Virus record (IMG/VR): IMGVR_UViG_3300047462_000072
Coordinates: 1 to 42,236 of that record
DNA length: 42,236 nt
Source: a virus
Reading direction: 5' to 3' (one strand)
Below the pieces are notes generated by a model that searched no databases, was not told the DNA's origin, and worked only from the letters and a program-made list of their open reading frames with translations. Of the stretch, positions 12,172 through 34,260 are shown in pieces (the first letter of the stretch is position 1; each line of letters opens with the position of its first letter). A program made the translations under genes and the position numbers.

Positions 12172-12475
12172 CGCCGAACAGCTGCGGATACTGCGTTTTG
12201 AGCAGTTGAAGCATCTGCGGATTCATGCCAGTGAATTGCGCGGCCGCGCTCACCGGCGCCTGCATTCCAGGCATTTGACCAGTGCTCATCGGGTTTCCAC
12301 CCGATTGCGCCGCCTGTTGTGCCGCCGCTCCCTGGCCGAGCAGCCCTTGCTGTCCCGGCATGCTCGCGGCAGCTTGGGCTACGGGCGCGTTGCCCGCGAT
12401 CCCGCGTAAAAGCGCCAACTGCTGCGGGCTGATCGCCTGAGCATTTTTCGATGTTCCGCTTCCGCCGTTTGCCAT
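12158..12475 (-). CDS. Small Gln/Gly/Met-rich virion-region protein, 105 aa
   Basis: The start is well supported by AGGAG six bases before the ATG. The protein is low-complexity (QQGLLGQGAAAQQAAQSGG, MSTGQMPGMQAP) with a short helical C-terminus (NPQMLQLLKTQYPQLF). It is probably a minor structural or assembly protein by position; no family is recognised. Confidence 0.55.
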   Translation of the reverse strand: MANGGSGTSKNAQAISPQQLALLRGIAGNAPVAQAAASMPGQQGLLGQGAAAQQAAQSGGNPMSTGQMPGMQAPVSAAAQFTGMNPQMLQLLKTQYPQLFGGGSQ

Positions 12476-12487
12476 GAAATTCTCCTA

Positions 12488-13324: not shown

Positions 13325-13689
13325 CGGTTGATCCCGCCAACGCCGCGAATCGGCATCGTGGTCATGCGGCCAGGCACGTAGCCGCCGCCCACGCCATTGG
13401 GCGCACCGCCCGACATCGCCGCATTGCCCGTGCCGCCTGCCACGTACTGCGGCCCGGCGAGCGCCTGCGTCATCTGATTCCAGTAGCCGCCGGTCAGCTG
13501 CGGATTGACCGCCATGGTGTTCGTGGGATTGGCGCTCGACTGCGGCTGCGTGAAGCCGGGCGCGATCTGGCTTTGCGGCGATTGCATGCCGCCGGTGCCG
13601 GAGAGAATCTGCTCCAGCCACGGGCTTAAAGATTGCATGTTGCCGACGCCATTGCCCATGCCCTGCGAGGATTGTGGATTACCGCTCAT
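13321..13689 (-). CDS. Hypothetical structural protein, 122 aa
   Basis: The start is ATG 13689, overlapping the previous stop (ATGA); a longer frame upstream is a shadow of the neighbouring gene. The composition is Gly/Gln/Asn/Met-rich with PWLEQILSGTGGMQS and GGYWNQMTQALAG, resembling a shortened version of the next protein's N-terminus (W-L-x-P/Q ... L). It may be a paralogue or partner in the same virion substructure. No known family. Confidence 0.55.
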   Translation of the reverse strand: MSGNPQSSQGMGNGVGNMQSLSPWLEQILSGTGGMQSPQSQIAPGFTQPQSSANPTNTMAVNPQLTGGYWNQMTQALAGPQYVAGGTGNAAMSGGAPNGVGGGYVPGRMTTMPIRGVGGINR

Positions 13690-14066
13690 AGTTCGTCCTG
13701 TAGGATGATTCCGACCTTTTTGAGATTCACGACGCGCTCCCAGCCGGGCCGACCGTAGGTGCGCACCACATCGATGCCGTTCGCGCGGCCCCACGCTTTG
13801 CCCGCTTCGAAGCCGGCCTTGATCGCTTCGATTCCCCGGCCGCCGAAATAGACGATGGTGCCGACCTTCTGTGCGGGGAATTGCTGGATCGCGACGATTG
13901 CGGCGAACTGATCGGGCTCGTGAAAGAGCAAGTACACGCCGCGCGCGAGTGCGATCAGCACATCGAGTTCGTTCTCATCGCCCTGGCCGCGCTCGACCGC
14001 CGCGGTGATCCAGTGCTCGACTTGCGGCCACACGGCGCGCAGCTCGTGGGGCTGCACCACGACCAT
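13686..14066 (-). CDS. Hypothetical phage protein, 126 aa
   Basis: An alpha/beta protein with strands VLIALARGVYLLFHE, VGTIVYFGG and a helix IEAIKAGFEAGKAWGRANG, ending GIDVVRTYGRPGWERVVNLKKVGIIL. The order (buried strands, R-T-Y-G-R-x-G-W near the end) is reminiscent of small GNAT-like phage proteins, but I do not see a clear acetyl-CoA loop, so the function stays open. It lies tightly between the tail hub gene and small structural genes. Confidence 0.6.
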   Translation of the reverse strand: MVVVQPHELRAVWPQVEHWITAAVERGQGDENELDVLIALARGVYLLFHEPDQFAAIVAIQQFPAQKVGTIVYFGGRGIEAIKAGFEAGKAWGRANGIDVVRTYGRPGWERVVNLKKVGIILQDEL

Positions 14067-17146: not shown

Positions 17147-18097
17147 TCAACCCAGCGTGTCGTAGATCGCCGCGTGCGCCTTCTCGTTGCGCTGCTCGAG
17201 CGTGTACTCGACCACCAGCTCCCATTGGTCGGAATCGCCGACCTTCGCGAGCGGAATGGTGGTGAAGGGACGCAGGTACGCGACCGCGAGGTACGCCGGC
17301 TGGATGAAGAACACGTCGGCCGAGTGAGCCAGGAAAATATCCGGGATGATCTTCACGTCGCCGAAGTCCGACTGGTAAATATCCACTGCGGTCGCCAGGG
17401 TCTTATCTTTGACCTGGATGAAGCGCGTGCCGGGCCCGGCGAACGCCGAGATGTTCTGCTTGTTGGCCGGCGAGACCAGCGCGTACTCCGGGCAATCACC
17501 CGAGTTCTTGTAGCACAGCTGCAGCACGTTCTTCACCTGCGCCTCGGTCAGCGCCTGATTGGTGCCATACGTGCGCGCCAGGGTGCCGTTCAAAGAGGCC
17601 GGATTTGCACCGCCCGTGCCGTACGTCACATTCGTGCCGAGCCAGGTGGGCAGGCCCGCCATGTTGCGCGCGGTTGTGGACGTGCCCGCAGCCTTTGGGT
17701 TGTTGTAGGTGAGAATGCCCTCCATGTCGCGCTTTAACTCCTTGCTCTTTTTCATGAGCTGGTAGCCTTTCTTGTTGGTGGCGCCGGCGGCGACAACGAC
17801 CTGAGAGGTACCGGAGAGCGAGATCGTTTTCACGCTGATCTGGGTGTAGTTACCCAGGCGCGTGGTCGGCGAGAGCGTCTGCGGCGTCGGCGTGTCACCT
17901 TCGACCGCGGCATTCGCCGTGTTCTGCGCCGCGAGGGAATCCGTATCCCACTCGTGATAGGTCTGCGCTGCTTTGGCCTTTTTCGCCATATTCAATAGCG
18001 GTGTTTTGATCGGATCCACGTTGTAGATCGCGTTCGAGAGATCTTCTCGAATGTTGGTCTGGGTGTACACCTGATAGGTGTTCGTCGGAACGGCCAT
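17147..18097 (-). CDS. Major capsid protein (SU10/DUF5309-like)
   Basis: A 316-residue HK97-fold capsid subunit. The N-terminus NTYQVYTQTNIREDLSNAIY, then IDPIKTPLL-like VDPIKTPLLNMAKK, the segment TRLGNYTQISVKTISLSGTS, ELKRDMEGILTYN, and C-terminal IIPDIFLAHSADVFFIQPAY...LRPFTTIPLAKVGDS are the recognisable order of the DUF5309 capsid family. GGAG precedes the ATG. The scaffold gene lies immediately upstream and an intrinsic terminator downstream, the usual setting for the most abundant virion protein. Confidence 0.92.
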   Translation of the reverse strand: MAVPTNTYQVYTQTNIREDLSNAIYNVDPIKTPLLNMAKKAKAAQTYHEWDTDSLAAQNTANAAVEGDTPTPQTLSPTTRLGNYTQISVKTISLSGTSQVVVAAGATNKKGYQLMKKSKELKRDMEGILTYNNPKAAGTSTTARNMAGLPTWLGTNVTYGTGGANPASLNGTLARTYGTNQALTEAQVKNVLQLCYKNSGDCPEYALVSPANKQNISAFAGPGTRFIQVKDKTLATAVDIYQSDFGDVKIIPDIFLAHSADVFFIQPAYLAVAYLRPFTTIPLAKVGDSDQWELVVEYTLEQRNEKAHAAIYDTLG

Positions 18098-18113
18098 GAG
18101 TTACTCCAAAGGG

Positions 18114-19208
18114 TTAGATGAGCGTGTCGAAGAACGCCGCGCCCGCATCCTCATCGCGAGGGTTGGCGACAAATCGATCACGCGCTTGCTGTCGGGTTGC
18201 TTGCGCCGGGTTTCGGTTCGTGCGCACACCGGGCCGGGCCATGGGCGGAGCTGCGCGTACACGTTTGGCAGCCTCGGGCGCCGCCGCTTGGAGAGCATCG
18301 AAGCGGGCAATCTTGTCCAGCGCGATCAAAAATCGGCTGTCCCAATTGGCCCACTGCGAGATCTCGGCGTCGGAAAACCCGAGTTTGCGACCTGCACTCA
18401 CTGCTGCCGTTCTGTCGGCACTGAACTTGATCTGATCCGTCCACTCGGGACGGTACTGAATGAGCTTTTCTTGCTCTTTCGGCAGATTTGCCGCGAGCTG
18501 CTGCTGCATTTGCTGCTGCGCCTGCTGTTGACTCTGGGTCAACGCGGCCTGCGTCTGTTGCAGGTGGTTTTGGATCTGCGCCTGGCGCTGTTGGAAGTCC
18601 ATCTGCTTGACCGCCCACTGCGCGGGGTCAGCGATGCGAAGCTGATCCCAGTTGATCGCCTGGTACTCGCCCAAGAGCTGCTGCTGCGCGAGCTGGCCCA
18701 GCTGCTGCGCGGCTTGGAACTGGCTCTGCACGAAGGCCTGCGCTTGCTGGCGTTCTGCCTCGAACGCGCGCTGCGCTTCGGAGAGCTGCATCGATTTGTT
18801 ATTGACGTGGCCCTCGAGCTGATAGCTCTTGAGCACGTCCGCCAAGGGCACCGCTTTGGTCTGGCCGTCGATCTTGACCGTGACGGGTAGCGCGCGGATC
18901 GCCTCGAAGTCGACGTTCGCCTTCTGGAAATACTCCTCCAGGCTCGCGTATTGCTCGCCCTGCGCCTCCTCGCCTTCGGGTGGGGTTTGCTCGCCCTCAT
19001 TGCCCTGCGTGGCGCCCTGCTCGTCTGCGGCGCGCGGATCGGGTCTCTCGTCGGTGCGCTCATCCTGGCGTCGCTCGCGCGGATCGAGCGGTGCATCGCC
19101 CAAAATGCCCTGATCTGCAAGGCCGTCAAATGCTCTTTGGTCGTCCGCAAACGCATTGCTTTCGGCAACGGGAGTCTGCGACACGCCCGTTTGGGTGGTG
19201 TCAGTCAT
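18114..19208 (-). CDS. Capsid scaffolding protein
   Basis: A 364-residue protein. The N-terminal 90 residues are acidic and disordered (DERTDERPDPRAADEQGATQ). A folded patch at about 90-135 (ASLEEYFQKANVDFEAIRALPVTVKIDGQ) follows, then a very Gln-rich coiled coil at about 140-250, and a basic C-terminus (RVRAAPPMARPGVRTNR...FFDTLI) expected to bind capsid subunits. This architecture and the position directly before the capsid gene are classic for scaffolds. Confidence 0.85.
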   Translation of the reverse strand: MTDTTQTGVSQTPVAESNAFADDQRAFDGLADQGILGDAPLDPRERRQDERTDERPDPRAADEQGATQGNEGEQTPPEGEEAQGEQYASLEEYFQKANVDFEAIRALPVTVKIDGQTKAVPLADVLKSYQLEGHVNNKSMQLSEAQRAFEAERQQAQAFVQSQFQAAQQLGQLAQQQLLGEYQAINWDQLRIADPAQWAVKQMDFQQRQAQIQNHLQQTQAALTQSQQQAQQQMQQQLAANLPKEQEKLIQYRPEWTDQIKFSADRTAAVSAGRKLGFSDAEISQWANWDSRFLIALDKIARFDALQAAAPEAAKRVRAAPPMARPGVRTNRNPAQATRQQARDRFVANPRDEDAGAAFFDTLI

Positions 19209-19251
19209 GGAGGGTCCTTCGTTGGATGCCGGGGTAGCGCCCGGCGCGCTA

Positions 19252-19440
19252 TCAACCGTCTAAGGCGGATTTCGGCATGCCGTCATGCGTCCAGCGCATC
19301 TGCTCGATCACGCTGTGACACTTCGGGCAATACACTTCGCACGGCAGGATCAAAATGAAATCGCGATTGCCGCAGCTGCAGACGAGGTAGTGCACTTTCA
19401 TCTCGACCTCGCGGGCGAGATCGCCGTCCGGCGCGTTCAC
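19252..19440 (-). CDS. Small zinc-ribbon protein, 62 aa
   Basis: A GTG start overlaps the previous stop (GTGA). CSCGNRDFILILPCEVYCPKCH holds a CxC...CxxC set typical of a zinc ribbon, starting near residue 22. An internal ATG at residue 14 (MKVHYLVCSCG) is an alternative start. It lies between portal-side small genes and the scaffold. The function is unknown. Confidence 0.6.
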   Translation of the reverse strand: MNAPDGDLAREVEMKVHYLVCSCGNRDFILILPCEVYCPKCHSVIEQMRWTHDGMPKSALDG

Positions 19441-19712
19441 GTGCGAATCCCGAAGAGCGCACGCCGTCGCCGCTCAAGCTCGAAGTCAGCGAACTTGCCC
19501 GTATCGACCGCTTGGCCCAAGTAATCGAGCAGGTTGTTCCAGAGCTGCTCGGTCAAAATGAGCCGCGTGTGCATCTCGGTGTCACGCAGCGGCACCTTGC
19601 GACGCTGCGCGGCGAGGCCCGCTTCGATGTGCTTGCACGCGGCTTTGAACATCACGTTTTCGAGGACTTCGCGCGCGTGGCCGGCGGCGATGCGTTCTTC
19701 TTCGGGGGTCAC
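19437..19712 (-). CDS. Hypothetical helical protein, 91 aa
   Basis: A GTG start overlaps the upstream stop (GTGA), and its own stop overlaps the zinc-ribbon start. It is entirely helical (EEERIAAGHAREVLENVMFKA, EQLWNNLLDYLGQAVDTGKF) with a basic tail. No family is recognised. Tight coupling on both sides supports it as a real late gene. Confidence 0.6.
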   Translation of the reverse strand: MTPEEERIAAGHAREVLENVMFKAACKHIEAGLAAQRRKVPLRDTEMHTRLILTEQLWNNLLDYLGQAVDTGKFADFELERRRRALFGIRT

Positions 19713-20113
19713 AGCAAGCTAGGCTTGGCTTCTTGAGCGGCTTTTAGAGCCTGTTGATTACACTGCCCCTGATTGATATAGGCCGGCTGTGGGAAGCCCA
19801 TTGTTTTTTGCCCTGCCCCAATGCTAGACAGCGACGATTCGCCCTGGCTGTCGTGCTTCGCGGCCTGATCTTTCTGGTATGGCATCCACTCACAGAAGCC
19901 GTCCCGCGGGAAACGATCGCCATCCTGGTGCAATGGAACGCTGGTGTGGCCACCGTGCGCATTTCCGTTGGCATCGAATACGACGAGATTTACGCATCGA
20001 TCTCCCCAAACATGGCAGATGATCGCCGGCAGCGGCGGCGCATCGCCACCAATGATGCCTTCGCCTTTTCGGGGCCAGTACCACACTACGCGTCCAATAG
20101 TCGGTTTAATCAT
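19709..20113 (-). CDS. Conserved-type phage protein, 134 aa
   Basis: The core MIKPTIGRVVWYWPRKGEG, PLPAIICHVWGDRCVNLVVFDANGN and GFCEWMPYQKDQAAKH forms an SH3-like beta barrel pattern that I recall from small hypothetical proteins of many phages with no assigned function. The tail after residue 100 is low-complexity Gln/Ala-rich. The start overlaps the portal stop (ATGA). Confidence 0.7.
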   Translation of the reverse strand: MIKPTIGRVVWYWPRKGEGIIGGDAPPLPAIICHVWGDRCVNLVVFDANGNAHGGHTSVPLHQDGDRFPRDGFCEWMPYQKDQAAKHDSQGESSLSSIGAGQKTMGFPQPAYINQGQCNQQALKAAQEAKPSLL

Positions 20114-22428
20114 AAATCTTGAAGCTCCTGATAATCACGCTTGACGACTTGCCCCGCATCGGCCTGGGCGTTTTGCTTGAGCTGGGACGCGACGATCGAC
20201 CCGATCACCTTGATGAGGGTCTGCGCCATATCCGCGTGCATCGCCTGCGCGTCGGCCTGGCGCTCGACGTTGCCCTGCACCGCCTCGTGCGTGCGCGAGT
20301 GCTGCTCGATGAGCGCATCGTGAGCGCGCTCGCGCTGGCCTTCCTGCGCCGCGTGCGCGAGTTCCTGCTGCGAGCGGGCGTTCGCGGCGGCGAGATTTGC
20401 TTGGGCCACGGCGAGCTGGCCCTGGAGTTTCAGCACGTCGCGCTGCGCCTGGCCCTGGGCGATCGCTTGATCGGACTGCGCCTTGATTTTGGCGACGGCG
20501 ACCTGGGGCGCGGGCGGCGCGTTCATCTGATGCTGCTGCATCTCGGCCATGTGCTGCTGGTACTCGGGGCTCGACGGGTCCATCGCGAAGTCGCCCGCGT
20601 TCTCGTACCCCAGTAGCTCGACGCCGATCTTGAACGCGTTGTAGGCCTGCTTCGGGCCGACCAGGCCCAGCGGCGCGATCTTCTCCTGCATGCCCTGGAC
20701 CATGGCGATGTTCTGCTTACCTTGCTCCTGATTGCCGGCGCCCAAGCCCACGTTCACCGTCATCATGTCGCGCTTGCGCCAGGAGGTGGGGTCGGTCGTC
20801 ACCCACTTCTTGGCAATCTCGAACATGAGCGGCTGATCTTGATTGCGCATCAGCTCGCCGTGGATCTTCGAGAACATTTCCTTCACGCCCTCGGCAATCA
20901 GCCGCGCCACCAGCTCGATCTTGAGCGATGCCGCCGACATCGCGGCGAGCTGGCCGCCTTTGGTCACATCCTGGAGCGCATCGGCGTCGAGGCCCATGGT
21001 GTCGCGGCCAACGCCGGTGCGCATCTCGCGAAGACTGTCCGCGTATTGCAGCGCCGGGATCACCTGGTCGACGATGTTCGACGGCGTGACCATCGGCATG
21101 ATCGACTCGGCCGGGTTGCCCTTCGTGCGCACCACGCCGCCGGGGCGCGAGGTCAAGAGGTCATCGATGTTGACGTTCTGCCAGTCGACCGCGACCCGGC
21201 TGTTGTTGGCGAGGTAGAGGTTATCGAGGCCTTGGCGAAACAGCATGGTCTTGATGACCTGCAGATCGCCGATCAGATCGTAATAACTGATGCCGGTGTG
21301 CCGGTGCGGCATGCGGATCGGCGAGCAGCTCGAAAACGGCGTCTCATCGATCTCCTCGTTCTCAAGGATGGTGTCGCCCGCGATCTTGACCTCGCGCAAC
21401 TCAGCGACGCCGTCGCCGTCGTAATCGACGCGCACCGCGTAATGGCGAAACTCGACCTCTTGCATCGAGAAGTCGGAGGCGGAGTCCATCGCGAGCTGAT
21501 CGGTGACGACGTTTCGGGCGAGCGAATCCATCTCGAGGAAATTCATCTTGCCGGGCGAGACCTTGTTCACGATCGCCTTGTCGAATCCTTCGACGATCAG
21601 CTCCGAACGCGTCTTGGTGGTCATGTGGCCGGCGAATGGCACATCCCCCAAGCTGCCCGTGGCCTCCGAATGCACCCGCATTTCTTCGGGCGGTACGCAC
21701 ATCACTCGCGTGACCTTGCGCGTCGATTTGCGCCTAATCTTGATATCGAAGCACTGCGCGGTCATCGGCGGCGGGGCAGCCATCGGCGGTGCGCCCGGCG
21801 GCAGCATCGGCATGATCGGCGCGGGCGCGGTAATCGTGTACTCGTGCTGGCCTAAGACCTCGATTTCCTCACCATTGGCAGCCTGCAGAATGCGCGGCAG
21901 TTCGGTCTCGAGAACGCCGGTGTATGTCTCGACCTTGCTCTCGGTTTTCGTCTCGGTAAACGTTTTGGAGTAACCGTTTCTGAGCAGCAGCGCGTCTTTG
22001 ATGAAGTCGTGCAGCACGAAAAAGCCGTTGTTCTGCTTCATGAACACGTGGTTCACGGCATCGGTCTCGGTCTGCGCCTGCTCGATGTCGTCGGGGCCGC
22101 GCGGATCAAAACGGCAGGTCTGCTTGCTGCCCACGAAGATGCGCATCATCTGCGGCATGATCCACTCGACCGTATCCCGTAGCTCGGGGATCACCACCTG
22201 GCTGCGATTCTCGACCTCGTTGCCCATGGGGCGCGCGGCATACATGTTGAGCGCGTTGAAGCGATCGACCTCGAGGGAGGTCATCTGCTCGCCGTTGGGA
22301 TACTGCGTGCCTTGAACAATCGTCCCGGCGCTGGTCGCCGATCCCAGCGCCGCGCGCTCGTATTGGCCGACGAGGGTGAGCAGCTCCTCGTCCGTCATCG
22401 GCGAGGGCTTATCCGCTTGGTCAGCCAC
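20110..22428 (-). CDS. Portal protein (SU10/BPP-1-like)
   Basis: A 772-residue portal, the ring at the capsid vertex through which DNA passes. Visible parts are NRSQVVIPELRDTVEWIMPQ and VGSKQTCRFDPRGPDDIEQA near residue 75-115, the wing and stem regions (YDLIGDLQVIKTMLFRQGLDN; RTGVGRDTMGLDADALQDVT), and a Gln/Ala-rich coiled-coil C-terminus (about 620-745) expected to form the barrel. A GTG start overlaps the preceding small gene by eight bases; ATG at 22398 is an alternative. Length is in the range of SU10-like portals. Confidence 0.88.
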   Translation of the reverse strand: MADQADKPSPMTDEELLTLVGQYERAALGSATSAGTIVQGTQYPNGEQMTSLEVDRFNALNMYAARPMGNEVENRSQVVIPELRDTVEWIMPQMMRIFVGSKQTCRFDPRGPDDIEQAQTETDAVNHVFMKQNNGFFVLHDFIKDALLLRNGYSKTFTETKTESKVETYTGVLETELPRILQAANGEEIEVLGQHEYTITAPAPIMPMLPPGAPPMAAPPPMTAQCFDIKIRRKSTRKVTRVMCVPPEEMRVHSEATGSLGDVPFAGHMTTKTRSELIVEGFDKAIVNKVSPGKMNFLEMDSLARNVVTDQLAMDSASDFSMQEVEFRHYAVRVDYDGDGVAELREVKIAGDTILENEEIDETPFSSCSPIRMPHRHTGISYYDLIGDLQVIKTMLFRQGLDNLYLANNSRVAVDWQNVNIDDLLTSRPGGVVRTKGNPAESIMPMVTPSNIVDQVIPALQYADSLREMRTGVGRDTMGLDADALQDVTKGGQLAAMSAASLKIELVARLIAEGVKEMFSKIHGELMRNQDQPLMFEIAKKWVTTDPTSWRKRDMMTVNVGLGAGNQEQGKQNIAMVQGMQEKIAPLGLVGPKQAYNAFKIGVELLGYENAGDFAMDPSSPEYQQHMAEMQQHQMNAPPAPQVAVAKIKAQSDQAIAQGQAQRDVLKLQGQLAVAQANLAAANARSQQELAHAAQEGQRERAHDALIEQHSRTHEAVQGNVERQADAQAMHADMAQTLIKVIGSIVASQLKQNAQADAGQVVKRDYQELQDL

Positions 22429-22594
22429 GCTTCGCCGCCTTGCGTTCGAGCGCCTCAACGCGCTCTTTCAGCTCTCGATTCTCGCGAATTAATTCGGCCA
22501 AGTCCGCGAGCGTGACCGCCTGCTCCCGGCTGAATTCGAGTGACTCGACCCGGCGCTTCAACCCCTCCACCTCATTCAGCAGCGCGATGCTCAA
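22421..22594 (-). CDS. Small coiled-coil protein, 57 aa
   Basis: A TTG start overlaps the previous stop (TTGA) and the stop lies within the portal start. The product is a near-continuous heptad coiled coil (LLNEVEGLKRRVESLEFS, LAELIRENRELKERVEALER) with Leu at a/d positions and a basic end. The coupled start and portal overlap support expression. A chaperone or assembly role is possible but unproven. Confidence 0.6.
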   Translation of the reverse strand: MSIALLNEVEGLKRRVESLEFSREQAVTLADLAELIRENRELKERVEALERKAAKRG

Positions 22595-22767
22595 GTTTTC
22601 GGTTCCTCAACCGGCGGCTTCGGGCAGGTGCAGGGAAAGACCTGGATGCCGAAAGGCTCGCCGGAATAGCGATTGAGCGGCAGCGTCAATTTCACGTGCT
22701 GCGTGCCGTCGCAATGCGTCTGGATCTCGCGGGACAGGTTCGCCGTGCCCAAATGTTTGAATGCCAT
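22591..22767 (-). CDS. Hypothetical protein, 58 aa
   Basis: ATG 22767 with GAAGGT upstream. The sequence (MAFKHLGTANLSREIQTHCD, then LTLPLNRYSGEPFGIQVFPC) is a small beta-rich domain ending in CTCPKPPVEEPKT. No family is recognised. It lies in the run of small genes between terminase and portal. Confidence 0.6.
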   Translation of the reverse strand: MAFKHLGTANLSREIQTHCDGTQHVKLTLPLNRYSGEPFGIQVFPCTCPKPPVEEPKT

Positions 22768-22775
22768 AAATACCT

Positions 22776-22964
22776 TCAGGCGATGCCTGATTTCGGATAA
22801 TTGAGCGGCCGGCGCATGTCGTTCGAGTGCTCGGTCAGCGTCCAGTGCTCGCGCCCGATCGGGCACCAGTAGCGCTTGCCGTAGTAATCGCCAGCGCTAA
22901 GGCCTTGCGCGATCCGGCCGTTGTGGTTTGGGCAGATCGCCACCGCGTCATCCGGCTCGTCCAT
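22776..22964 (-). CDS. Hypothetical protein with Cys/His motif, 62 aa
   Basis: ATG 22964. The product MDEPDDAVAICPNHNGRIAQ... has CPNH near residue 11 and WCPIGREHW near 33, a possible small metal site. The upstream extension in the same frame is a shadow of the neighbouring gene. The function is unknown. Confidence 0.55.
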   Translation of the reverse strand: MDEPDDAVAICPNHNGRIAQGLSAGDYYGKRYWCPIGREHWTLTEHSNDMRRPLNYPKSGIA

Positions 22965-22965
22965 A

Positions 22966-23172
22966 TCAGCAATTGAACGGCTGCGCGTTCGCGGCGGCCG
23001 GCGCTTCGGTCGCGGTACCGACGACCGGCGTCGTGACGGGCGTCCAGTTGCGCGCGAGCGCTTGGCGCACGTCGGCCACGCCCACCTCCAGGCTCGATCC
23101 ATCGGTCGAGGTGTACTGAAAGCCCGAATAGCCGACGAACGTATCGCCGCCGGTGGGTGGAATCATCTGCAT
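22966..23172 (-). CDS. Hypothetical protein, 68 aa
   Basis: The start is ATG 23172 with AGGAG eight bases upstream (GTG 23175 is one codon earlier). It begins MQMIPPTGGDTFVGYSGFQY, beta-rich, and ends in an Ala/Pro-rich tail. It follows terminase directly. A small structural or assembly protein is possible; no family is recognised. Confidence 0.6.
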   Translation of the reverse strand: MQMIPPTGGDTFVGYSGFQYTSTDGSSLEVGVADVRQALARNWTPVTTPVVGTATEAPAAANAQPFNC

Positions 23173-23188
23173 CACTGAGTCTCCTCAT

Positions 23189-24481
23189 TCAAACGATGCC
23201 GCTCCTGCCGTATTTGAGCGCGGGCAGTTTCATGCCTTGGGTATTGCTCATTTCGGGGCCGGCCATGGCGGCGTATCGAAACATGTCGGCGCCGTGACTC
23301 CATTCGTCGTGCACCGGCGCACCGGGTTCGCCGGTCGAGGTCGGGATCCCGCGGCGGTACCGTTTCAGGCATTCCAAAAGCCGCGCGCACTTCACCTTGT
23401 CGATGAAGGTTGACGGAAACATCATGCGAGCCGCGCGGATGCCTTCATTCACGTCTTTGCGCGGCAGCACGGTCACGGTCCACTTCAGATCCTCGAGGAT
23501 CTCCTTCGCCGACTTGCCCGTCTTGTAGTCGCCGTGGTCGCCGTCGTGCGGCAGGAACACGCAGCCCCAGTTGAATTCGCGCTTACGCATTTCCATCGAG
23601 TACCACGCGAGCGTCTTTTTGCTGTCCTCGATGTAGTCGATGAACCGCATGGAGCTCGCCGCGCGCTGCACGAAGCCGATCGTCATGGAATCATTCCAGC
23701 CCAAATCGAACACCGGGTAGACCAGGTGATGCGGGTCGTAGGGAAAAAGCCCGCTACGCCCCTCTGCGTGCATCAATGCCACCTCATCGGCATAGATCGC
23801 GCCCGAGATCGCCGGGCGCGGCTTGCCCTCCCAGATGTTCTCGTAGTCGACTTTCGATAGCGTCGCCTGCGCGTGGGCGCGCTCTTTCTCGAGCACATCG
23901 TTGAACCAGGGATTGTCCCGCCAATTCATCTCGACGCTGATCGTGTCTGGAAACGGCCGCTCGACCAGGCGCACGTAGGTTGCATCCGTGTCGAGTTCGG
24001 GATTCCAAGTGACCCAGATCTCGGAGCCGTCGCGCCGGATGGTGGGCGTCAGAATGGACCAGGAGCGCTCGGTCGTGACCTGGCCCTCTTCGACCCACAC
24101 GTAATCGGCACCTTCGAAGCTCTTGATCGACTCGGCCGTCTGGTCGGAGAGACCCGCGAACATGAACGCTGTGCCGTTCTTGCCCGTGATGCCCTGTTTC
24201 TCGACGTTGTAAAACGCGCCCATGCCGAGCGCCTGGATTTGATCGGAGAGCAGGCGATGCACCGATTCACGAATCGAATACTGCACCTCGCGGGTGCAGA
24301 GAACGCGGATCGGGCGCTGGACCCCGATGATGAGCAGCGCTCTCGCCACCGACCAGCTTTTGGCCGACCCGCGCCCCCCGCGGATCGATTTGTATCGTGA
24401 CGGCTTGAACAGGCACCGCAGTTTCGGCGGAAACTGCGCCTCAATCTGCAAAGGTGACCTTGATCGACAGTTGCTCACCAT
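23189..24481 (-). CDS. terL: Terminase large subunit (PBSX/Terminase_3 type)
   Basis: A 430-residue packaging motor. The ATPase has a Walker-A-like IRGGRGSAKSW (residues 33-43), Walker B with catalytic Glu in YVWVEEGQ (E131/E132) and the coupling motif TWNPELDTD near 158. The nuclease domain shows D259 in PVFDLGWNDS with D264, HDGDHGDYKTGKSAKE near 306-320 and a final HDEWSHGADMFRYAAMA. ATG 24481 overlaps the small subunit by 41 bases; TTG 24451 is a shorter alternative closer to the usual family N-terminus (LQIEAQFPPKLRCLF). Confidence 0.95.
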   Translation of the reverse strand: MVSNCRSRSPLQIEAQFPPKLRCLFKPSRYKSIRGGRGSAKSWSVARALLIIGVQRPIRVLCTREVQYSIRESVHRLLSDQIQALGMGAFYNVEKQGITGKNGTAFMFAGLSDQTAESIKSFEGADYVWVEEGQVTTERSWSILTPTIRRDGSEIWVTWNPELDTDATYVRLVERPFPDTISVEMNWRDNPWFNDVLEKERAHAQATLSKVDYENIWEGKPRPAISGAIYADEVALMHAEGRSGLFPYDPHHLVYPVFDLGWNDSMTIGFVQRAASSMRFIDYIEDSKKTLAWYSMEMRKREFNWGCVFLPHDGDHGDYKTGKSAKEILEDLKWTVTVLPRKDVNEGIRAARMMFPSTFIDKVKCARLLECLKRYRRGIPTSTGEPGAPVHDEWSHGADMFRYAAMAGPEMSNTQGMKLPALKYGRSGIV

Positions 24482-25000: not shown

Positions 25001-25312
25001 CTATCGATTGACGGGCAGCAGCGCCACCCATACCAAATTCTTGTAAGGGTTCGTTGTCGCGCACTTGACGACGAATTCGTACACGCAGCCATTGACGCCG
25101 CCTTGCACCGGCACAATCACTTTTGTCGCGGTCGAGTCGAACACCACCTGACCAGCGAGCAGATTCGCCGGCATGGGATCGGTGCCCGACAAGACCGTGA
25201 TCGCGACCGAGGCGTACCCTGAGAGCGTCTCGCCAGAGGCCAGATCCAGCCCAAAATCGAAGGTGAGCGGCACCGATTCGGCCGGGTCTTTCACATCGAA
25301 ATAGACGCTCAA
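25001..25312 (-). CDS. Conserved-type phage protein, 103 aa (beta domain)
   Basis: A TTG start overlaps the upstream stop (TTGA). The sequence reads as one beta-sandwich: VPLTFDFGLDLASGETLSGY, ASVAITVLSGTDPMPANLL, VVFDSTATKVIVPVQGGVNG, CVYEFVVKCATTNPYKNLVW. This pattern is frequent among small phage virion-region proteins of unknown role. It lies between the appendage cluster and terminase. Confidence 0.65.
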   Translation of the reverse strand: MSVYFDVKDPAESVPLTFDFGLDLASGETLSGYASVAITVLSGTDPMPANLLAGQVVFDSTATKVIVPVQGGVNGCVYEFVVKCATTNPYKNLVWVALLPVNR

Positions 25313-27432
25313 TGCACGCTCCTCGAGACGGTGAAAGTGCGCCTCGCCGTGCGCGTCACGACATAGACCGGGTCGGTATAGACGGGCGCGGTGTTGACGA
25401 AGCCCTCGGCGGTGCCCGCGACCAGGTCGGGCGCCTCGAGAATCGAACCCACCCCTGAGTTGATGAAATCGGAACCCGCGCCCGCGATCGTGTCGGGCGC
25501 GTCCTGCATCGCACCCGCGCCCGATGCGGGGGATGATTGACTGCCGTCGAAGAACACCGTGGTCGAATCGAACCCGACGTTGGTGTCAGCGAAATTCAGG
25601 CCCGAGTCGCCCGCCATCGTATCGGGCGCGTCCTGCATCGCACCCGCGCCTGAGATGCTGCCGCCGGGCGCCTGATCGGTGCTCGAGGAGGTGCGAATGA
25701 AACCTAAATTCGCGACCCAAAACGTGTTCGATGCGAGGCCGGTCTTATCCTGAAGAATGAACTTCAAGATTTCGGTATTGACGATGCCGAGCGCCGAGAG
25801 CGGAATGGTGTACGTATTCCACGCACCCACGGCCATGGTCGATGGCCCATAGCCGGATGTCGCCAGGGTCAGGGAATTGCCGAACGAAATGTCCGCCTGC
25901 TGCAACTCGTAGTAATCGCCCGCCTGGGGCACAACGCCTTCGGTGTTGAACGTGACCGTGGTCGCCGTGTTGCCCGAGACGCCCGTCTGCACGATGCCCG
26001 CCGTCATGTCGTTGAGCGCGAAGCTCGCGAACTGATTCGTCGGCCAATTCTGCGCGGCATCGGTGAGCGTCGTGTCCGATCCCATCGCGGTCGAGACGCC
26101 GTTGTACCAAGCGCTCTTGTAGAAACCGATCGACAGGTCCTGTCCCGCGACCGTCGGATAGAGCGAGATCTGAATGTGATCGTAAGGCGCGACCGGAAAA
26201 CGCCCGTTCCCTGAGTTCGCCGGGCTGTCGTGCTGCTTGTAGAACAGCATGTAGCCGTAGGGGCTTTGGATGTCCGCTTCATACACGCCGTCGGCGCTCG
26301 TCACCGGATTGGCGGGCGCCAGGGTGCCTGTGCGGTTTGACGATAGCACCGTGCCCGCTGCAACGCCCGGCGTAAACGTGCCGCCACCGTTGTAGTTGCT
26401 CCAGGCCGGATTGAACCCGGTAACGGTGCCCCCGTCGGTGACGTAGTAATCGGCATAGGGGAGCGGCGTCACGGCGCTCGAGGGCGCGGACTCAGGCCCG
26501 ATGCCATTCGCATTGACCGCGTGCACCGTGAATGTATACGCCACGCCCGCGGTGAGCTGTGGGAAGTAGATACGCGCCGACAAACCCACGGCCGGCGTCG
26601 TGGTCGCCGAAATCATCGCCGTCGCACCGCCTGGGTTCGCGGTCGCGACATAGGCGGAGAGCGCCGAGCCGCCGTTCGAGGCCGGGGCGGCAAAAAGAAG
26701 GATCGCGCCTTCGACCGCCGCGCTCGCCACGAGGCCGGTCGGTGCGACGGGCAGATTCGCCGCGTAGCTCTGCACCGTGTCGGGCGCGTCCTGCATCGCG
26801 CCCGACCCACTGACGGGACTCGCGCCCGAACCCGCAACCGTGTCAGGCGCATCGTGCATGGCGCCCGTGCCGACGGCAGCCGGACCGCCCACGCCGGAAA
26901 CGAAATCGCCGGCATCGGCCATTGCGCCGGAGCCCGAATTTGCCAGGCCACCCGAACCCGCGATCGTGTCGGGCGCATCGTGCATGGGACCCGTGCCGAC
27001 GGTTGCAAGCAAAGGCTGAACCGTCGTCGAGTAACCGAACGACTGAAACTGATTCAGGCCGAAAGGTGCGCTAAGGGCCGGCCCCAGGTTCGACGGATTG
27101 AGCGCGCTCACCAGCGGTGCGGGAATAAAGCCCGCGCCCGCGATCGTGTCGGGCGCGTCTGCGATCGTCCCGGCTCCAGTCATCGAGGTCGGCAAAATGA
27201 CCTGGTTACTGAATACCGACTGCCATTGCGTAAACCGCGATCGAGGCCCGCGGCCGATGCCGTTGAGCGCGCTCGTCACCACCGGAGCGGCCGTTACCGT
27301 TCCCGCGCCCGCGACGGTGTCGGGTTGTTCAACCGCGGCTCCCGCCGCCATCACTAACGGCTTCGCCTTCGAGTTGGTCGGCGATAACCGAAACTGATTA
27401 CGGTTAAATGGCGCTTGGCGGGTGAGCGCCAT
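25309..27432 (-). CDS. Large virion-appendage protein with DAPDT repeats and an FN3-like domain
   Basis: A 707-residue protein with a strong AGGAGGG site. The N-terminal part (to about 225) and the C-terminal part (about 600-690) carry about nine copies of a Gly-x-Gly-Ala-Met-x-Asp-Ala-Pro-Asp-Thr-Ile/Val-x-Gly motif, e.g. GSGAMQDAPDTVQ, GTGAMHDAPDTVAGSG, GAGAMQDAPDTMAG. Residues about 230-325 look like a fibronectin type III domain (PTGLVASAAVEGAILLF ... YTFTVHAVNANGIGPES). Residues about 335-590 are a jelly-roll-like beta domain (YEADIQSPYGYMLFYKQHD; ISLYPTVAGQDLSIGFYKS), plausibly carbohydrate-binding. It is likely a fibre or adhesin on the virion. Confidence 0.65.
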   Translation of the reverse strand: MALTRQAPFNRNQFRLSPTNSKAKPLVMAAGAAVEQPDTVAGAGTVTAAPVVTSALNGIGRGPRSRFTQWQSVFSNQVILPTSMTGAGTIADAPDTIAGAGFIPAPLVSALNPSNLGPALSAPFGLNQFQSFGYSTTVQPLLATVGTGPMHDAPDTIAGSGGLANSGSGAMADAGDFVSGVGGPAAVGTGAMHDAPDTVAGSGASPVSGSGAMQDAPDTVQSYAANLPVAPTGLVASAAVEGAILLFAAPASNGGSALSAYVATANPGGATAMISATTTPAVGLSARIYFPQLTAGVAYTFTVHAVNANGIGPESAPSSAVTPLPYADYYVTDGGTVTGFNPAWSNYNGGGTFTPGVAAGTVLSSNRTGTLAPANPVTSADGVYEADIQSPYGYMLFYKQHDSPANSGNGRFPVAPYDHIQISLYPTVAGQDLSIGFYKSAWYNGVSTAMGSDTTLTDAAQNWPTNQFASFALNDMTAGIVQTGVSGNTATTVTFNTEGVVPQAGDYYELQQADISFGNSLTLATSGYGPSTMAVGAWNTYTIPLSALGIVNTEILKFILQDKTGLASNTFWVANLGFIRTSSSTDQAPGGSISGAGAMQDAPDTMAGDSGLNFADTNVGFDSTTVFFDGSQSSPASGAGAMQDAPDTIAGAGSDFINSGVGSILEAPDLVAGTAEGFVNTAPVYTDPVYVVTRTARRTFTVSRSVH

Positions 27433-28196: not shown

Positions 28197-30284
28197 TCAC
28201 ACTCCGGCTATGGCGTCTTGGCACGCCTGCCATTTGTAGGGCGCCGATGATTCTGGGCTAAAGGTTTGCTGTGGCGACTCGCTGATGCCCCACGAGGTGG
28301 CCTGGCGCGCGAGGCAGTTAGAGTACGGACAATAGACGTTGGCGTCGGTGGTGCCCACGTTGGTGTACCAGAAATGAAAATGATTCAGATACTGCGTGTA
28401 CATGCGCGCGTCGATCTGCGCGGCCTCGGCGAGCGTGTCCCAGCCTGCGGGTATACCGTATCCCCCATCCGCGAGCGGCTGATTGCCGCACAGAAGATTC
28501 TGTGTACCCTCATAGGCCACCAAATTCAATGCGGGGTACGTTGTGCTCAAGAGCGATACGTAGGTGGCAATTCGCGCCTCCGCTTGCCCGCGCCAGCCGT
28601 TCGAGGGCACAGCGCTCGACAACGTCGTACCGCCGACGACGTTCCCCGTCATGCAGGCAAAGAGCGCGCCGACGGGGTCGGTTTGGGCGTTTATTGTCGC
28701 GATGTCGCTGTTGGATGGATAACCGTCCATCCAGTACGGGGCGATGGCGACGGCTGAAATGTGGTGTGACTTCGCAGGTCCCGTGTATCCGTCGATTGTG
28801 CCGGTCCAATACGTCGTTTCAAGCGCTTCGATAGCGGAGGCCGTGTTTGCAGACTGAGCGCCTAATATCGTCACGGCGCGCGAGCCCATAACAGCGTAGA
28901 AAATTTCGGAGATCACGGCAGTGCGATAGCCGAAATAATTTCGATTCCAGCCGTAGTTGCCTGAGCTGGCGCCATTGTCTGACGCTTGGCCTGGCCACAC
29001 TTGGGCGCCCAGCGAACCGGCAACGTTATATTGCTGAAAGGCCGAATTCCACACCTCGTTGGACAGCTCGAGCTTGGCTTTCAGCGTCGAGGATAGCGCG
29101 CTGAAACCAGACTGCATGCCGGTGCCCGAATTGATGAGATTCGCCATGCTCGTCACATAGGAATCCGGGGCGGTGAGCGGCACGTTGAACCACGGATTGG
29201 CGGCTTTGAGGTTCGCGAACGCGATCATGATCTCAAGAGGGCAGCCGCCCGCCATACCCCACGTAACGTTCGAGGGCAGTGAGCGCTGAGACCAGGTGTC
29301 TTTCCAACTGATCCAAAAATTGCAATAGCAATTCTGGCCAGAGAACGTCGTGGTAATCGCGTTCGCAAGGCCGCCCGTCCATGCCACGTAAGTTGAGCCG
29401 GCGATAAACGCCGCGCTTCGCACTTCGCCATCGTTGAAATAGATGCTGCGGCTTTGTGACGCAAAAGGCCAAATGTTTGCCAGATTGCAGCTCGTCGCGC
29501 CCGCCGCGATCGTGCCGCTCGAGGTCGACAACGACGTGAATTCGCCTGGATAGTTAAAGTTCAGGGAATTGGTGTTATTCCAATCCATGTTGCGAATCGT
29601 CGAATAATTGGCAGTCATCGCCAAAAACTTCGGGTGAAAAATCGCGCCCGAATTGAATGAGGAAACGTACGCCGTTTCAACCACACTCAAATTGCGAATG
29701 TAGTTGCCGACTCCCAAAGGATCGGTGGAGGTAATGCAAAGCTGCAGGCCGTTGGTGGTCGGCGTCGCCACCGTGAATGTCGAGCCAGAACTCGTGATCG
29801 TCGCCGAGGCATCGCCCAAGATCTGGATGGTGCCCGCGCCCGTAAATTGCACGGTGTAGCTCACGTTCGCCTGACCGTACGGGTAAGTGACACCCGACAC
29901 CGCCGCGATCCCGAAATTGATCGCCATCCAAACACTTGTGAACGATCGGCCGGACGCGGTGATGGCCGTCGGATAGAAATCCGAATCCATCGGCAGCGCG
30001 TACTCTTCCTGAGTCGTCGTGCCGCCGGGAGTTGTCGCCGTCATCCAAGGGCATGCGTTCGAGGCGTTTGCCCCGGATCCGCCGGACTTGCAGATATTGA
30101 GGAACGGCTGCTCGTTGGCGTAGTAACCGATCGCACTTAAATTCACCCCGAGCGCGCGGCCAGTTCCCGCTATGCCCGATCCACCCACCACATCAGGCGC
30201 GTCCGCGATCGCCCCCGACCCGATCAGCGCGGCAGCAACCGATGCGGAAATTGAGCGGTTGGTCGCCCCGAGCCAGCTACCCAT
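28197..30284 (-). CDS. Probable tailspike with clan-A glycoside-hydrolase domain
   Basis: A 695-residue protein. Residues 1-45 hold one DAPD-type motif (GSGAIADAPDVVGGSG) as in gene 25309-27432, perhaps an attachment tag. Residues about 45-205 are beta-rich, and a DGEVR module lies at about 255-315. The catalytic domain carries RNMDWNNTN near 231, then NPWFNVPL near 363, ELSNEVWN with acid/base E410, AVAIAPYW near 511, and LVAYEGTQN with nucleophile E592. Asn-Glu on strand 4 and a second Glu on strand 7 are the clan-A TIM-barrel pattern. It would cleave capsule, LPS or exopolysaccharide during adsorption; the substrate is unknown. Confidence 0.75.
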   Translation of the reverse strand: MGSWLGATNRSISASVAAALIGSGAIADAPDVVGGSGIAGTGRALGVNLSAIGYYANEQPFLNICKSGGSGANASNACPWMTATTPGGTTTQEEYALPMDSDFYPTAITASGRSFTSVWMAINFGIAAVSGVTYPYGQANVSYTVQFTGAGTIQILGDASATITSSGSTFTVATPTTNGLQLCITSTDPLGVGNYIRNLSVVETAYVSSFNSGAIFHPKFLAMTANYSTIRNMDWNNTNSLNFNYPGEFTSLSTSSGTIAAGATSCNLANIWPFASQSRSIYFNDGEVRSAAFIAGSTYVAWTGGLANAITTTFSGQNCYCNFWISWKDTWSQRSLPSNVTWGMAGGCPLEIMIAFANLKAANPWFNVPLTAPDSYVTSMANLINSGTGMQSGFSALSSTLKAKLELSNEVWNSAFQQYNVAGSLGAQVWPGQASDNGASSGNYGWNRNYFGYRTAVISEIFYAVMGSRAVTILGAQSANTASAIEALETTYWTGTIDGYTGPAKSHHISAVAIAPYWMDGYPSNSDIATINAQTDPVGALFACMTGNVVGGTTLSSAVPSNGWRGQAEARIATYVSLLSTTYPALNLVAYEGTQNLLCGNQPLADGGYGIPAGWDTLAEAAQIDARMYTQYLNHFHFWYTNVGTTDANVYCPYSNCLARQATSWGISESPQQTFSPESSAPYKWQACQDAIAGV

Positions 30285-30863: not shown

Positions 30864-31361
30864 TTAAGCGCCGTTTGCAGTGATGGAAAGCGAGGTCACG
30901 TTGATGGTTTCGCCCACCGTGAAAGCGACCGAGCCAAAATTAAGGTCAGCGCCCGAGGTGGCGACGCTGCCTTGCACGATGCGCGTCGTGCTCGATGCCG
31001 CCTGACAATTCGTCGCGCTCGAACTCGAACAAATGAGAAAATGTGCGGCGGTTCCCGCGGCCGTCGCGGCGGTTGCGGTGATCGCATTGAACGTGAGCAC
31101 GCCGCCCGATACGGTGCCCGGTGTCGAGGAGAGCGCCAGGGTGACGAGCACGGTGCCGGTATCCACCGTGGCGACGCTCGCCGGCTGCGCGCCCGTCACG
31201 ATCATCAGATAGCCGCTCGAGCCGATCGCGGTCACTACATCCGTCATCGCATTGTTGCGATGGGTGACGGTGTACTGCGGAGTCGCCGGTGCCGGCTGCG
31301 AGACGATCAGTGCGAATGCAAGGCCGAGCGCCAGCGCGCCGCGTTTCAGCAGACGAATCAT
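30864..31361 (-). CDS. Exported-looking protein in the appendage cluster, 165 aa
   Basis: The N-terminus MIRLLKRGALALGLAFALIV then SQPAPATPQ has a basic start, a hydrophobic core and a small-residue region with a plausible signal-peptidase I site after Ala-Thr-Pro-type residues. The mature part is beta-rich and Thr/Ala-rich (TGTVLVTLALSSTPGTVSGG). GTVSGGVLTF is similar to GTISGGVVTLGIRAS at the end of the 925-residue protein, so the two share a motif. A Sec signal is unusual for a virion protein. Confidence 0.6.
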   Translation of the reverse strand: MIRLLKRGALALGLAFALIVSQPAPATPQYTVTHRNNAMTDVVTAIGSSGYLMIVTGAQPASVATVDTGTVLVTLALSSTPGTVSGGVLTFNAITATAATAAGTAAHFLICSSSSATNCQAASSTTRIVQGSVATSGADLNFGSVAFTVGETINVTSLSITANGA

Positions 31362-31390: not shown

Positions 31391-34168
31391 TTAGAACGCG
31401 CCGTGCATGGCGCTCGCGCGGATGCCTAACGTGACGACACCGCCCGATATGGTGCCGGAGGTCGGAGTGATTAAAACCGCCGTACCGGGCGAGGTGACGG
31501 GCGATGTCACGCCGAAATTCATGTTGTTGGTCGAGAGAAAATTACCCGTGGCGAGTAGCGCGGTGGGCGAGCCTGCAAAGCCCACGCCTACAGGGCCGGT
31601 AAAAGAGCCGTAGAGCGACGTGTTGACGAGGTACCCCGTCTCATCGACCGAAAAGCCGGATGGAAAAATGATCGGCGTCGCGGGACTGGTGGGCGATCCG
31701 GTCCACTCCTGCGTCCAGGTCTCTTTCGTGACCTGGCCCAAGGAAGTCGATTCCCATTCATTGTCGACATCCTTCACATGCACGAAGTTGCCAATGCCAA
31801 GACCGCCTTGGGAGAACACCACGCGGTTGATGTAGCCGTTGTAATTGGCCGCGAGCGCCCCGCCGCCGGTGGCCGTCGCCGTCACCGCGCCGGTGAGTGC
31901 AGTGAACGGGGGCACCGAAGTCGAGCCGTTGGTGAGGGTGATGTAGCGCACCTCGCCGTCCGAGAAAATCACCTTGTAAGTGCCGCTGGAATACGGCCAA
32001 CCGGTGCCTGACAGAGTTGCCGTGGTCGAGCCAGAAGCCAGCGTGCCGGTGAAGGTGATGGGCAGCTGGCGCCAGCCGAACACCGTCATGTCGATGTTCG
32101 ACTGGGTAAAAAGGTTCGCGCCCTGCTGGTAGACAGAGCCCTTGTAGGTCGCGGTCGACGAACAATTGGCGAGATGAATCTCGCCTTGGAAGTTCTCGTG
32201 CTGACCGGCCACTTGAATGCCGGGATACCACGTCGCGCTCTGCGGCCAGTCGTTTAGGAAAATCTTCCAATTGGTGAACGAGAGATCGTAGCTCTGGCTG
32301 TTGCCGAGCGTTCCATTGAACGGCACCCCGTTGGGCTCGGGCGCGGTGTCGGCGATCGTCCAATTCTCGAAGGAAATGTTGTTGAACGGCGAATTGCCGG
32401 GGAAACGCAGGCCCCACACAATTCCGTTGTTGGCCGTCGGGGTCGTCGAGTTGTAGCTCACGAACACGTTTCGGATCACGCCGCCCGTGCCTGCTGCGGT
32501 GTCGGGCTCCAGGTCCAAGAAGCCATCGGGGCGCAGCGACGTGTATCCATCGACCACCGTGCCGTAAGTCGCCTCGATCTTAAGCGAGAGCAGCGTGCCC
32601 GAGCTCGTCGAGCGGCGCGTGGCGGAGGTTGTCGCGAACACTGCCGGGCCCACGTCGAGCGCATCGTGGATGTACATCGAGCCCTGCCAGCCTGCGGTGC
32701 CCTGGTTGTAGACGTAGATCGCGTGCGGCGGGGCGAACCAGGTATTGATGCCGCCGACGTTGCCGGAGGTCGCCGTCGCGGTCGCGCTGCCGCTTACCGT
32801 CGTGCTTGCGCCGGTGCTCGAATTTAAGAAATTGGTTGCCGTCGCCTGCCCCTGCGTCAACGACATGCAGACGATCTGCGCGTTGCTCAAGGTCGGGCAA
32901 TAGGTGCCGCTGGGCAGCGTCCAATTCGAGGCGAGCGTCGCGCTCGATGCGCCGCTTGCGAAACTGCCGGCGAACGTGATCGTGCCGGTCGTGCCATCTT
33001 GCAGGTCGCTGTAGCGCTTGAAAATAGGATGAATGAGGCGCAGCGACCCCGTGCCGTTGAAGCCCATGTCGAATCCATCGAACACGGGGTGATCGAATTC
33101 GATGTCGGTGGGCAGAATGCCGAGCGTGCCGGGCGAGCTGCTCGAGGCGGTCGTGACCGCAAGCCCGGTCTGCCATTCGGGCCACACCCCAACCACAACC
33201 GGAATGAAATTTGCCGGGTTGGCGCCGATCGGCGCGGCAACCGTCAAGTTTCGAAACACCAGCCGCTGGGAGGCGCCGCGGATGTGGAAAATGCTAAGAA
33301 ACGGCGATTGCCCGTTCCAGAAAGGCCCGGTAGGCCCGAGCGTAAAGCCGCTGCCCGAACCGCTGCTGCCCTGAAAAGTGTTGCCCGCATTCGTGACGAG
33401 GTATTCCCCCATCTCGTTGTACTGCGCCGTGACGCCGGCCGCATACGGCCCCCAGGTCGGCCCTTGGATGATCGTGGATCCCGGCGTGCCCGTGTAGACG
33501 ATGCATGCCGTCTGGTTCTCGCAGGTCCACAAATTGTCGGTGGCGTTCTCCCAGACGAAAACGTTCACGCCCATGTTGTTGACGATGAACGAGCCGGAGG
33601 GGCCGATGTCGACGTTGGTGAAACTGCCGACGAAAATCTGCCGGTTGCCGTTCGAAGCCACATTCAAAAACACCGGGCAATCGACCTTGAGCACGGTCTT
33701 CGTGCCTGCCACGGCGGCGAACGCCGCGTAGGTCGCCGGCCAGCTATCGGCAACGCCGGTCGGATCGACGCCCGTCTGCTTGCACAGCTCGAGCTGGTTC
33801 GGAATACCCGATCCCGAGCCGCCGCTATAGCCGAGCAGCGCGGCGATCTGCGTGCCGGTGCAATCCTGCGCGGCGGCCGCGCTCGACAGCGGATTGCATT
33901 TGACGGTGAGCGCCGTCATCTGCGCGAGCTTCGCGTTCGTCACCGCGCCCACGTTGATCGTACTCGAATTGGTGTCTGACGGGATCGACACATCGCCCGT
34001 GATCGGCGCCCACAGATGCGCGTACAGGTCCGCGAAATTGTGGTCGATCTTCGCGCCGCCCGAACTCAACGAATCAGCCGAGCCCGGCGTGGTGATGATC
34101 GGCTGATACTGGGCGAATGCGGGCAACGCCGCGAGCAGAAGCGCGAGCGCGGTCAAACCAAATCGCAT
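31391..34168 (-). CDS. Large tailspike/fibre-like protein with an N-terminal signal peptide
   Basis: A 925-residue protein. Residues 1-20 (MRFGLTALALLLAALPAFAQ) are a textbook Sec signal with a cleavage site at AFA-Q. After it comes a fibre-type sequence (FADLYAHLWAPITGDVSIPS; VGAVTNAKLAQM). A large beta-solenoid-like region from about 150 to 680 (GSFTNVDIGPSGSFIVNNMG; IEFDHPVFDGFDMGFNGTGS; NISFENWTIADTAPEPNG) suits a pectate-lyase-type tailspike. Two SGTYxVxFSDGEVR-type modules lie near 395-470 and 690-760. It is the first gene after the leader terminator. AAGGATC precedes the ATG. Confidence 0.68.
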   Translation of the reverse strand: MRFGLTALALLLAALPAFAQYQPIITTPGSADSLSSGGAKIDHNFADLYAHLWAPITGDVSIPSDTNSSTINVGAVTNAKLAQMTALTVKCNPLSSAAAAQDCTGTQIAALLGYSGGSGSGIPNQLELCKQTGVDPTGVADSWPATYAAFAAVAGTKTVLKVDCPVFLNVASNGNRQIFVGSFTNVDIGPSGSFIVNNMGVNVFVWENATDNLWTCENQTACIVYTGTPGSTIIQGPTWGPYAAGVTAQYNEMGEYLVTNAGNTFQGSSGSGSGFTLGPTGPFWNGQSPFLSIFHIRGASQRLVFRNLTVAAPIGANPANFIPVVVGVWPEWQTGLAVTTASSSSPGTLGILPTDIEFDHPVFDGFDMGFNGTGSLRLIHPIFKRYSDLQDGTTGTITFAGSFASGASSATLASNWTLPSGTYCPTLSNAQIVCMSLTQGQATATNFLNSSTGASTTVSGSATATATSGNVGGINTWFAPPHAIYVYNQGTAGWQGSMYIHDALDVGPAVFATTSATRRSTSSGTLLSLKIEATYGTVVDGYTSLRPDGFLDLEPDTAAGTGGVIRNVFVSYNSTTPTANNGIVWGLRFPGNSPFNNISFENWTIADTAPEPNGVPFNGTLGNSQSYDLSFTNWKIFLNDWPQSATWYPGIQVAGQHENFQGEIHLANCSSTATYKGSVYQQGANLFTQSNIDMTVFGWRQLPITFTGTLASGSTTATLSGTGWPYSSGTYKVIFSDGEVRYITLTNGSTSVPPFTALTGAVTATATGGGALAANYNGYINRVVFSQGGLGIGNFVHVKDVDNEWESTSLGQVTKETWTQEWTGSPTSPATPIIFPSGFSVDETGYLVNTSLYGSFTGPVGVGFAGSPTALLATGNFLSTNNMNFGVTSPVTSPGTAVLITPTSGTISGGVVTLGIRASAMHGAF

Positions 34169-34180
34169 GGGGGATCCTTG

Positions 34181-34207
34181 AAAAAAAATCCCGCCAGAAC
34201 GGCGGGA
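34181..34207 (-). terminator. Leader terminator (tR'-like) before the late genes
   Basis: On the minus strand TCCCGCC and GGCGGGA form a perfect 7-bp stem around GTTCT, followed by eight T. It lies about 63 bases downstream of a consensus promoter at the end of the Q-like gene and just before the first late gene, so late expression requires readthrough. Confidence 0.93.
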
Positions 34208-34260
34208 TCAGGTGTTGCGCGGGGGATGACCGCTCGTGATGAAGTAGCATTGCGTCATCG

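Follow-up and report, generated by a model that had tools for sequence, protein, structure and literature searches.

A phage genome recovered from environmental DNA encodes a protein, P0001, that we interpret, with fair probability, as a retaining endo-glycosidase of the clan GH-A type, likely virion-borne, which binds and cuts host exopolysaccharide at adsorption and is probably derived from the host. The fold is well supported by a predicted model; we infer the activity, the retaining mechanism, the polysaccharide substrate and the virion location. The genome is the IMG/VR virus record IMGVR_UViG_3300047462_000072 (42,236 bases, known from environmental DNA only), and this whole stretch is the window of the present analysis.

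A single open frame of 695 codons fills positions 28197-30284 on the minus strand, and several stops interrupt the plus strand across the same interval. All four motifs that the initial annotation quoted from this interval are present and their coordinates are correct, namely RNMDWNNTN (residues 231-239), ELSNEVWN (406-413, including N409-E410), AVAIAPYW (511-518, including Y517) and LVAYEGTQN (588-596, including E592); the strand had not been given. Because the gene starts 3 bp past the stop of its upstream neighbor and ends 4 bp short of the next gene, it belongs to a tight minus-strand gene run, which heads toward the terminase with all its genes on the same strand. The gene lies among virion genes, as do those of tailspikes and virion depolymerases (Table 1). 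Further phage genes include an ejection protein and an integrase, and the portal belongs to phrog_1216, a group that has LUZ24-like Pseudomonas podoviruses among its annotated relatives; the phage is temperate and podovirus-like. Elsewhere in the window, a predicted plus-strand protein (657-1421) has a long low-complexity tail of alanine/aspartate/arginine repeats (DAARDAAWAAA...).

Table 1. Features of the glycosidase-like gene and its surroundings, in window coordinates
Feature	Position	Strand	Basis or comment
Virion gene block: terminase large subunit, portal, scaffold, major head protein	17147..24481	-	same strand as P0001
Fn3-containing protein, six copies of DAPD repeat	25309..27432	-	repeat shared with P0001 N-terminus
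Downstream partner gene, 247 aa	27449..28192	-	same gene 3' of glycosidase in phage contig L012
Glycosidase-like gene, 695 aa (P0001)	28197..30284	-	ORF
E592, putative nucleophile, directly after predicted barrel strand 7 (587-590), within AYEG	28509..28511	-	model and alignment; pairs with GH5 nucleophile Glu, not significant
Y517, invariant Tyr after predicted strand 6	28734..28736	-	model and alignment; pairs with invariant Tyr of GH5, not significant
E410, putative acid/base, directly after predicted barrel strand 4 (403-407), within SNEVWN	29055..29057	-	model and alignment
Small insert, residues 241-327 (repeat core 255-316), after strand 2	29304..29564	-	missing from most bacterial relatives
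R231, invariant Arg, end of predicted barrel strand 2	29592..29594	-	alignment
Beta-sandwich-like region, residues about 80-215; seems to split the barrel between strands 1 and 2	29640..30047	-	mostly beta in model
N-terminal repeat GSGAIADAPDVVGG, residues 22-35 of P0001	30180..30221	-	common to Fn3 protein (25309-27432)
Virion structural protein (phrog_3758)	30864..31361	-	PHROGs match
Pectate-lyase-like protein (phrog_11548), second candidate depolymerase; two small-insert-domain copies	31391..34168	-	PHROGs match and insert similarity

P0001 matches no sequence model in Pfam, PHROGs, NCBIfam or PDB, and the profile search against glycoside hydrolase families that had been suggested as a check likewise came back empty in Pfam. 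Membership in GH5 or GH39 was rejected since the family profiles are unmatched: GH5 (PF00150) gave no Pfam match and a profile-profile E of 0.065-0.2 at a probability below 1%, and GH39 (PF01229) gave no Pfam match in P0001 or in 43 relatives. With P0001 as the only query, exact-peptide scans detected no relative in the viral or the genome collections. A translated search of plasmids yielded 25 records at 23-31% identity to P0001, and patterns from an alignment of ten of these matches with P0001 (alignment A1) were used to find relatives in viruses and genomes. The family is encoded by at least 122 IMG/VR viral contigs and at least 547 bacterial-genome stretches, the bacterial members occurring in Cyanobacteria, Pseudomonadota, Planctomycetes, Acidobacteriota and other groups. 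No member was detected by tblastn with five family queries (P0001 and four others) among the 50,697 deposited phages of INPHARED, and literature searches on TIM-barrel phage glycosidases, the SNEVWN motif and new clan GH-A families turned up no account of it. It is without a name in Pfam, PHROGs and NCBIfam, the family libraries compared here. One member, on a Paracoccus marcusii plasmid (L008), is part of a single frame that exceeds 2,100 codons and bears the annotation family 16 glycosylhydrolase, and a Proteobacteria MAG (genome G077, locus L149) carries ten family copies in 2.6 Mb, some of them as tandem pairs.

Eight putative active-site residues of P0001 (R231, N409, E410, W412, N413, Y517, Y591 and E592) are conserved with no exception in the ungapped homologues examined. 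These homologues number about 190 and comprise 79 viral (79 or 80 by column), 82 genome and 10 plasmid sequences and 20 paralogues found by profile. The patterns used to fetch the viral and genome loci included [SA]NE[VIT]WNxxF, so that retrieval partly builds in the invariance; because the NEVWN motif was contained in the fetch pattern, these two sets independently test only R231, Y517, Y591 and E592. All eight residues are tested independently by the plasmid sequences, which were found by tblastn, and by the paralogues found by profile rather than by motif, in which the eight are kept in 20/20 cases. An alignment of 106 members (A2) has ten invariant positions: R231, E406, N409, E410, W412, N413, F416, Y517, Y591 and E592. 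Judged from these alignments, the motifs are far beyond chance.

Structure prediction, named in the initial annotation as a check of its proposal of a TIM-barrel clan-A glycosidase, returned a barrel-type fold in which strands alternate with helices. AlphaFold2 supplied with A2 gave a model with pLDDT 87.9 and pTM 0.90, in which residues 1-39 are predicted to be disordered; the single-sequence model (pLDDT 31.8) was set aside as useless. Predicted strands at 363-368, 403-407, 470-475, 509-514 and 587-590 are separated by helices, consistent with a (beta/alpha)8 barrel. In a Foldseek search of the PDB, 25 of the 26 matches at E<=0.001 belong to clan GH-A, including GH2 beta-glucuronidases (E 4.5e-7), GH10 xylanases and GH26 lichenases and mannanases, and the single remaining match is an unrelated transporter-complex entry. 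The TM-scores do not exceed about 0.5 of the target, a modest value, and the search against viral models revealed no convincing relative (best E 2.3e-4, probability 0.54). Enzymes of clan GH-A carry an Asn-Glu acid/base pair at the end of strand 4 and a nucleophile Glu at the end of strand 7. In the predicted model, N409-E410 come after strand 403-407 and E592 after strand 587-590. The proposed fold is thus borne out by a confident model, by PDB matches that are nearly all from clan GH-A, and by an invariant Glu pair that ends strands 4 and 7; as predicted, a TIM-barrel fold of the clan GH-A glycosidase type is well supported for P0001.

The same evidence bears on the idea that the motifs are a chance resemblance within a beta-helix tailspike or another non-barrel fold. 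That idea could draw on the lack of any matching family model and on the pectate-lyase-like nature of the neighbor at 31391-34168, but the confident model with its barrel-like alternation of strands and helices, the clan GH-A matches in the PDB and the invariance of the motifs among the examined relatives make it very improbable. A beta-helix fold for P0001 was rejected on the AlphaFold2 model, and the non-barrel reading is largely refuted.

A trimmed profile, from which residues 61-213 (the beta-sandwich) and 240-326 (the insert) had been removed, was compared with GH5 as a consistency check. The comparison aligned 288 columns at an E of 0.2, which is not significant, and misplaced the acid/base pair; it pairs G46 with the strand-1 Gly, R231 with the strand-2 Arg, Y517 with the strand-6 Tyr and E592 with the nucleophile. 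This non-significant alignment suggests that LGVNL (45-49) may be strand 1 and residues 229-231 strand 2, with the beta-sandwich between them. By PDB profile the beta-sandwich weakly matched cellulosomal scaffoldin domains (E 0.05), and no use was made of this match.

The gene context of other family members links them both to virions and to polysaccharide synthesis. Among viral contigs, the family gene adjoins portal and terminase genes (L013), major head protein and tail fibre genes (L012), head-tail adaptor and head protein genes (L034) or a baseplate gene (L027). The phrog_2 terminase family was detected in 20 of 50 viral records, the rest perhaps having other terminases or being fragments. 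In bacteria, 7 of 40 genomes have a Poly_export (Wza) gene within 12 kb of the family copy, where chance would give 0.8 from genome size and gene number (p 8e-6, a value that overstates independence, as four of the seven genomes are Rhizobiales and hence not independent). In Thioclava, the family gene is inside a full plasmid exopolysaccharide locus with a flippase, glycosyltransferases, a pyruvyl transferase, an acyltransferase and a Cps kinase, and in Roseobacter it adjoins glycosyltransferases. In a FastTree phylogeny covering 152 members, the virus/cell label switches 11 times, and supported branches require at least nine of these switches; the group that contains P0001 has seven viral rows and a single cellular one. 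Because bacteria share the family and often have a copy near their exopolysaccharide genes, the phage enzyme probably descends from a polysaccharide-trimming hydrolase of the host, and the bacterial gene context makes host exopolysaccharide the probable substrate.

Within the window, P0001 shares sequence elements with two of its neighbors. The repeat G-x-G-x-x-x-DAPD occurs once in its N-terminus and six times in the Fn3 protein (25309-27432, minus strand), where it takes the form G-x-G-x-x-x-DAPD-x-V/I-x-G and accompanies an Fn3 domain; it was found neither in any of the shuffles nor in the other fetched phage loci. The core of the small insert has 39% identity to residues 705-768 of the pectate-lyase-like neighbor (31391-34168), and further copies of the insert occur in seven other viral family members (L012-L017, L020) and in one bacterial contig (L092). 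Sharing of either kind would be usual between phage tail proteins. The 247-aa downstream protein matches its counterpart in L012 at 68% over 89 aa; the downstream genes in L013, L014 and L019 look alike by eye, yet homology held for L012 only. Just upstream of the 31391-34168 gene, a strong terminator-like hairpin with a T-run (34187-34209, minus strand) may set the spike module apart from the genes before it.

Judging by gene position only, P0001 is probably carried on the virion. Apart from the shared N-terminal repeat, no tail-attachment, trimerisation or chaperone domain was recognised in it with Pfam and PHROGs. An alternative is that P0001 is a glycosidase that acts as a free enzyme, released by the infected cell or lysogen, either clearing exopolysaccharide for the spread of progeny or altering the biofilm of the lysogen. 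The integrase of this phage agrees with such a role, as do the signal-peptide-like (Sec-type) N-termini of 35 of the 81 viral members (L013, L027 and the lipoprotein-like L034 among them), which are easier to reconcile with secretion than with a place in the virion; most bacterial relatives (64 of 88 by the same rule) appear to be secreted. This rule is crude and is not SignalP, P0001 itself scores weakly, and its N-terminus is the disordered repeat that it has in common with the Fn3 protein. Both window neighbors on the minus strand, at 30864-31361 and 31391-34168, are virion-type proteins whose starts resemble those of Sec substrates, but the former is classed as virion structural (phrog_3758) despite its own signal-like start, and the glycosidase-like gene lies in the tight run toward the terminase-portal block. 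We consider release as a free enzyme rather unlikely. In contig L013, five consecutive genes (7215-13831) apparently have Sec-type signal-peptide-like starts, which is odd for virion parts assembled in the cytoplasm.

In the mechanism proposed for the virion-borne enzyme, E410 at the end of strand 4 of the (beta/alpha)8 barrel would serve as the acid/base and E592 at the end of strand 7 as the nucleophile, with R231 and Y517 assisting the catalytic pair, and the glycosidic bond would be cleaved by retaining double displacement, as in clan GH-A. The beta-sandwich would sit between strands 1 and 2, and the small beta domain added after strand 2 in the phage subgroup would lie on the active-site side and possibly shape substrate binding. 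The particle would carry P0001 beside the pectate-lyase-like candidate depolymerase, and P0001 would bind and cut host exopolysaccharide during adsorption.

The barrel could instead be a non-cutting polysaccharide binder that takes part in receptor binding only. P0001 is divergent from all named hydrolases, and some bacterial slime-locus glycosidases, such as WceF, combine strong polymer binding with slow cutting (PMC7949094). Retention of the catalytic Glu pair and the supporting Arg, Asn and Tyr in all 79 viral copies would be unexpected for a pure binder, which we regard as improbable.

P0001 resembles the clan GH-A families GH2, GH10, GH26 and GH5 in its predicted barrel, the Asn-Glu of strand 4, the Glu of strand 7, the Arg after strand 2 and the Tyr after strand 6. 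It differs from them in that no family model and no PDB chain matches it significantly by sequence or by profile, in the apparent beta-sandwich between strands 1 and 2, and in its NExWN and AYEG motifs, for which this analysis turned up no named family. PslG is a GH39 hydrolase of clan GH-A encoded in an exopolysaccharide locus; the bacterial members of the P0001 family are likewise enriched near such genes, whereas P0001 is unmatched by the GH39 or GH5 models of Pfam. Hydrolases are frequent in exopolysaccharide synthesis clusters (PMC9075953). The slime-locus enzyme WceF of Pantoea stewartii has a tailspike fold, a trimeric beta-helix (PMC7949094), and is a precedent for an enzyme type common to phage tailspikes and a bacterial exopolysaccharide cluster, although P0001 is predicted to be a barrel and WceF is a beta-helix.

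The initial annotation held that most phage depolymerases are beta-helices or lyases, and the rarity of TIM barrels among them agrees with DepoScope: of the 984 phage proteins assigned a polysaccharide-degrading fold there, 10 (about 1%) are TIM barrels, which are absent from the training set (PMC11326577). These rare depolymerase-like proteins share the TIM-barrel polysaccharide-degrading fold with P0001 (PMC11326577), but they come from INPHARED-listed phages and match known domains, whereas the five queries of the P0001 family found no member in that collection. TIM-barrel phage depolymerase-like folds are already known and rare.

As a broader and more tentative proposal, which we hold to be possible rather than probable, the family may represent an unnumbered clan GH-A family with a sandwich-split barrel that moves between exopolysaccharide loci and tailed phages, the slime-trimming enzyme serving as a key, so that the phage enzyme would predict the host polymer. 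Since the bacterial copies can adjoin polymer-building genes, the bacterial relatives of a phage copy could hint at what it cuts. If active, the family would provide a set of enzymes against exopolysaccharide that current depolymerase predictors, for which beta-helices are the main training material, would be expected to overlook. Phages may have taken the slime-trimming enzyme of their hosts as a way through that slime.
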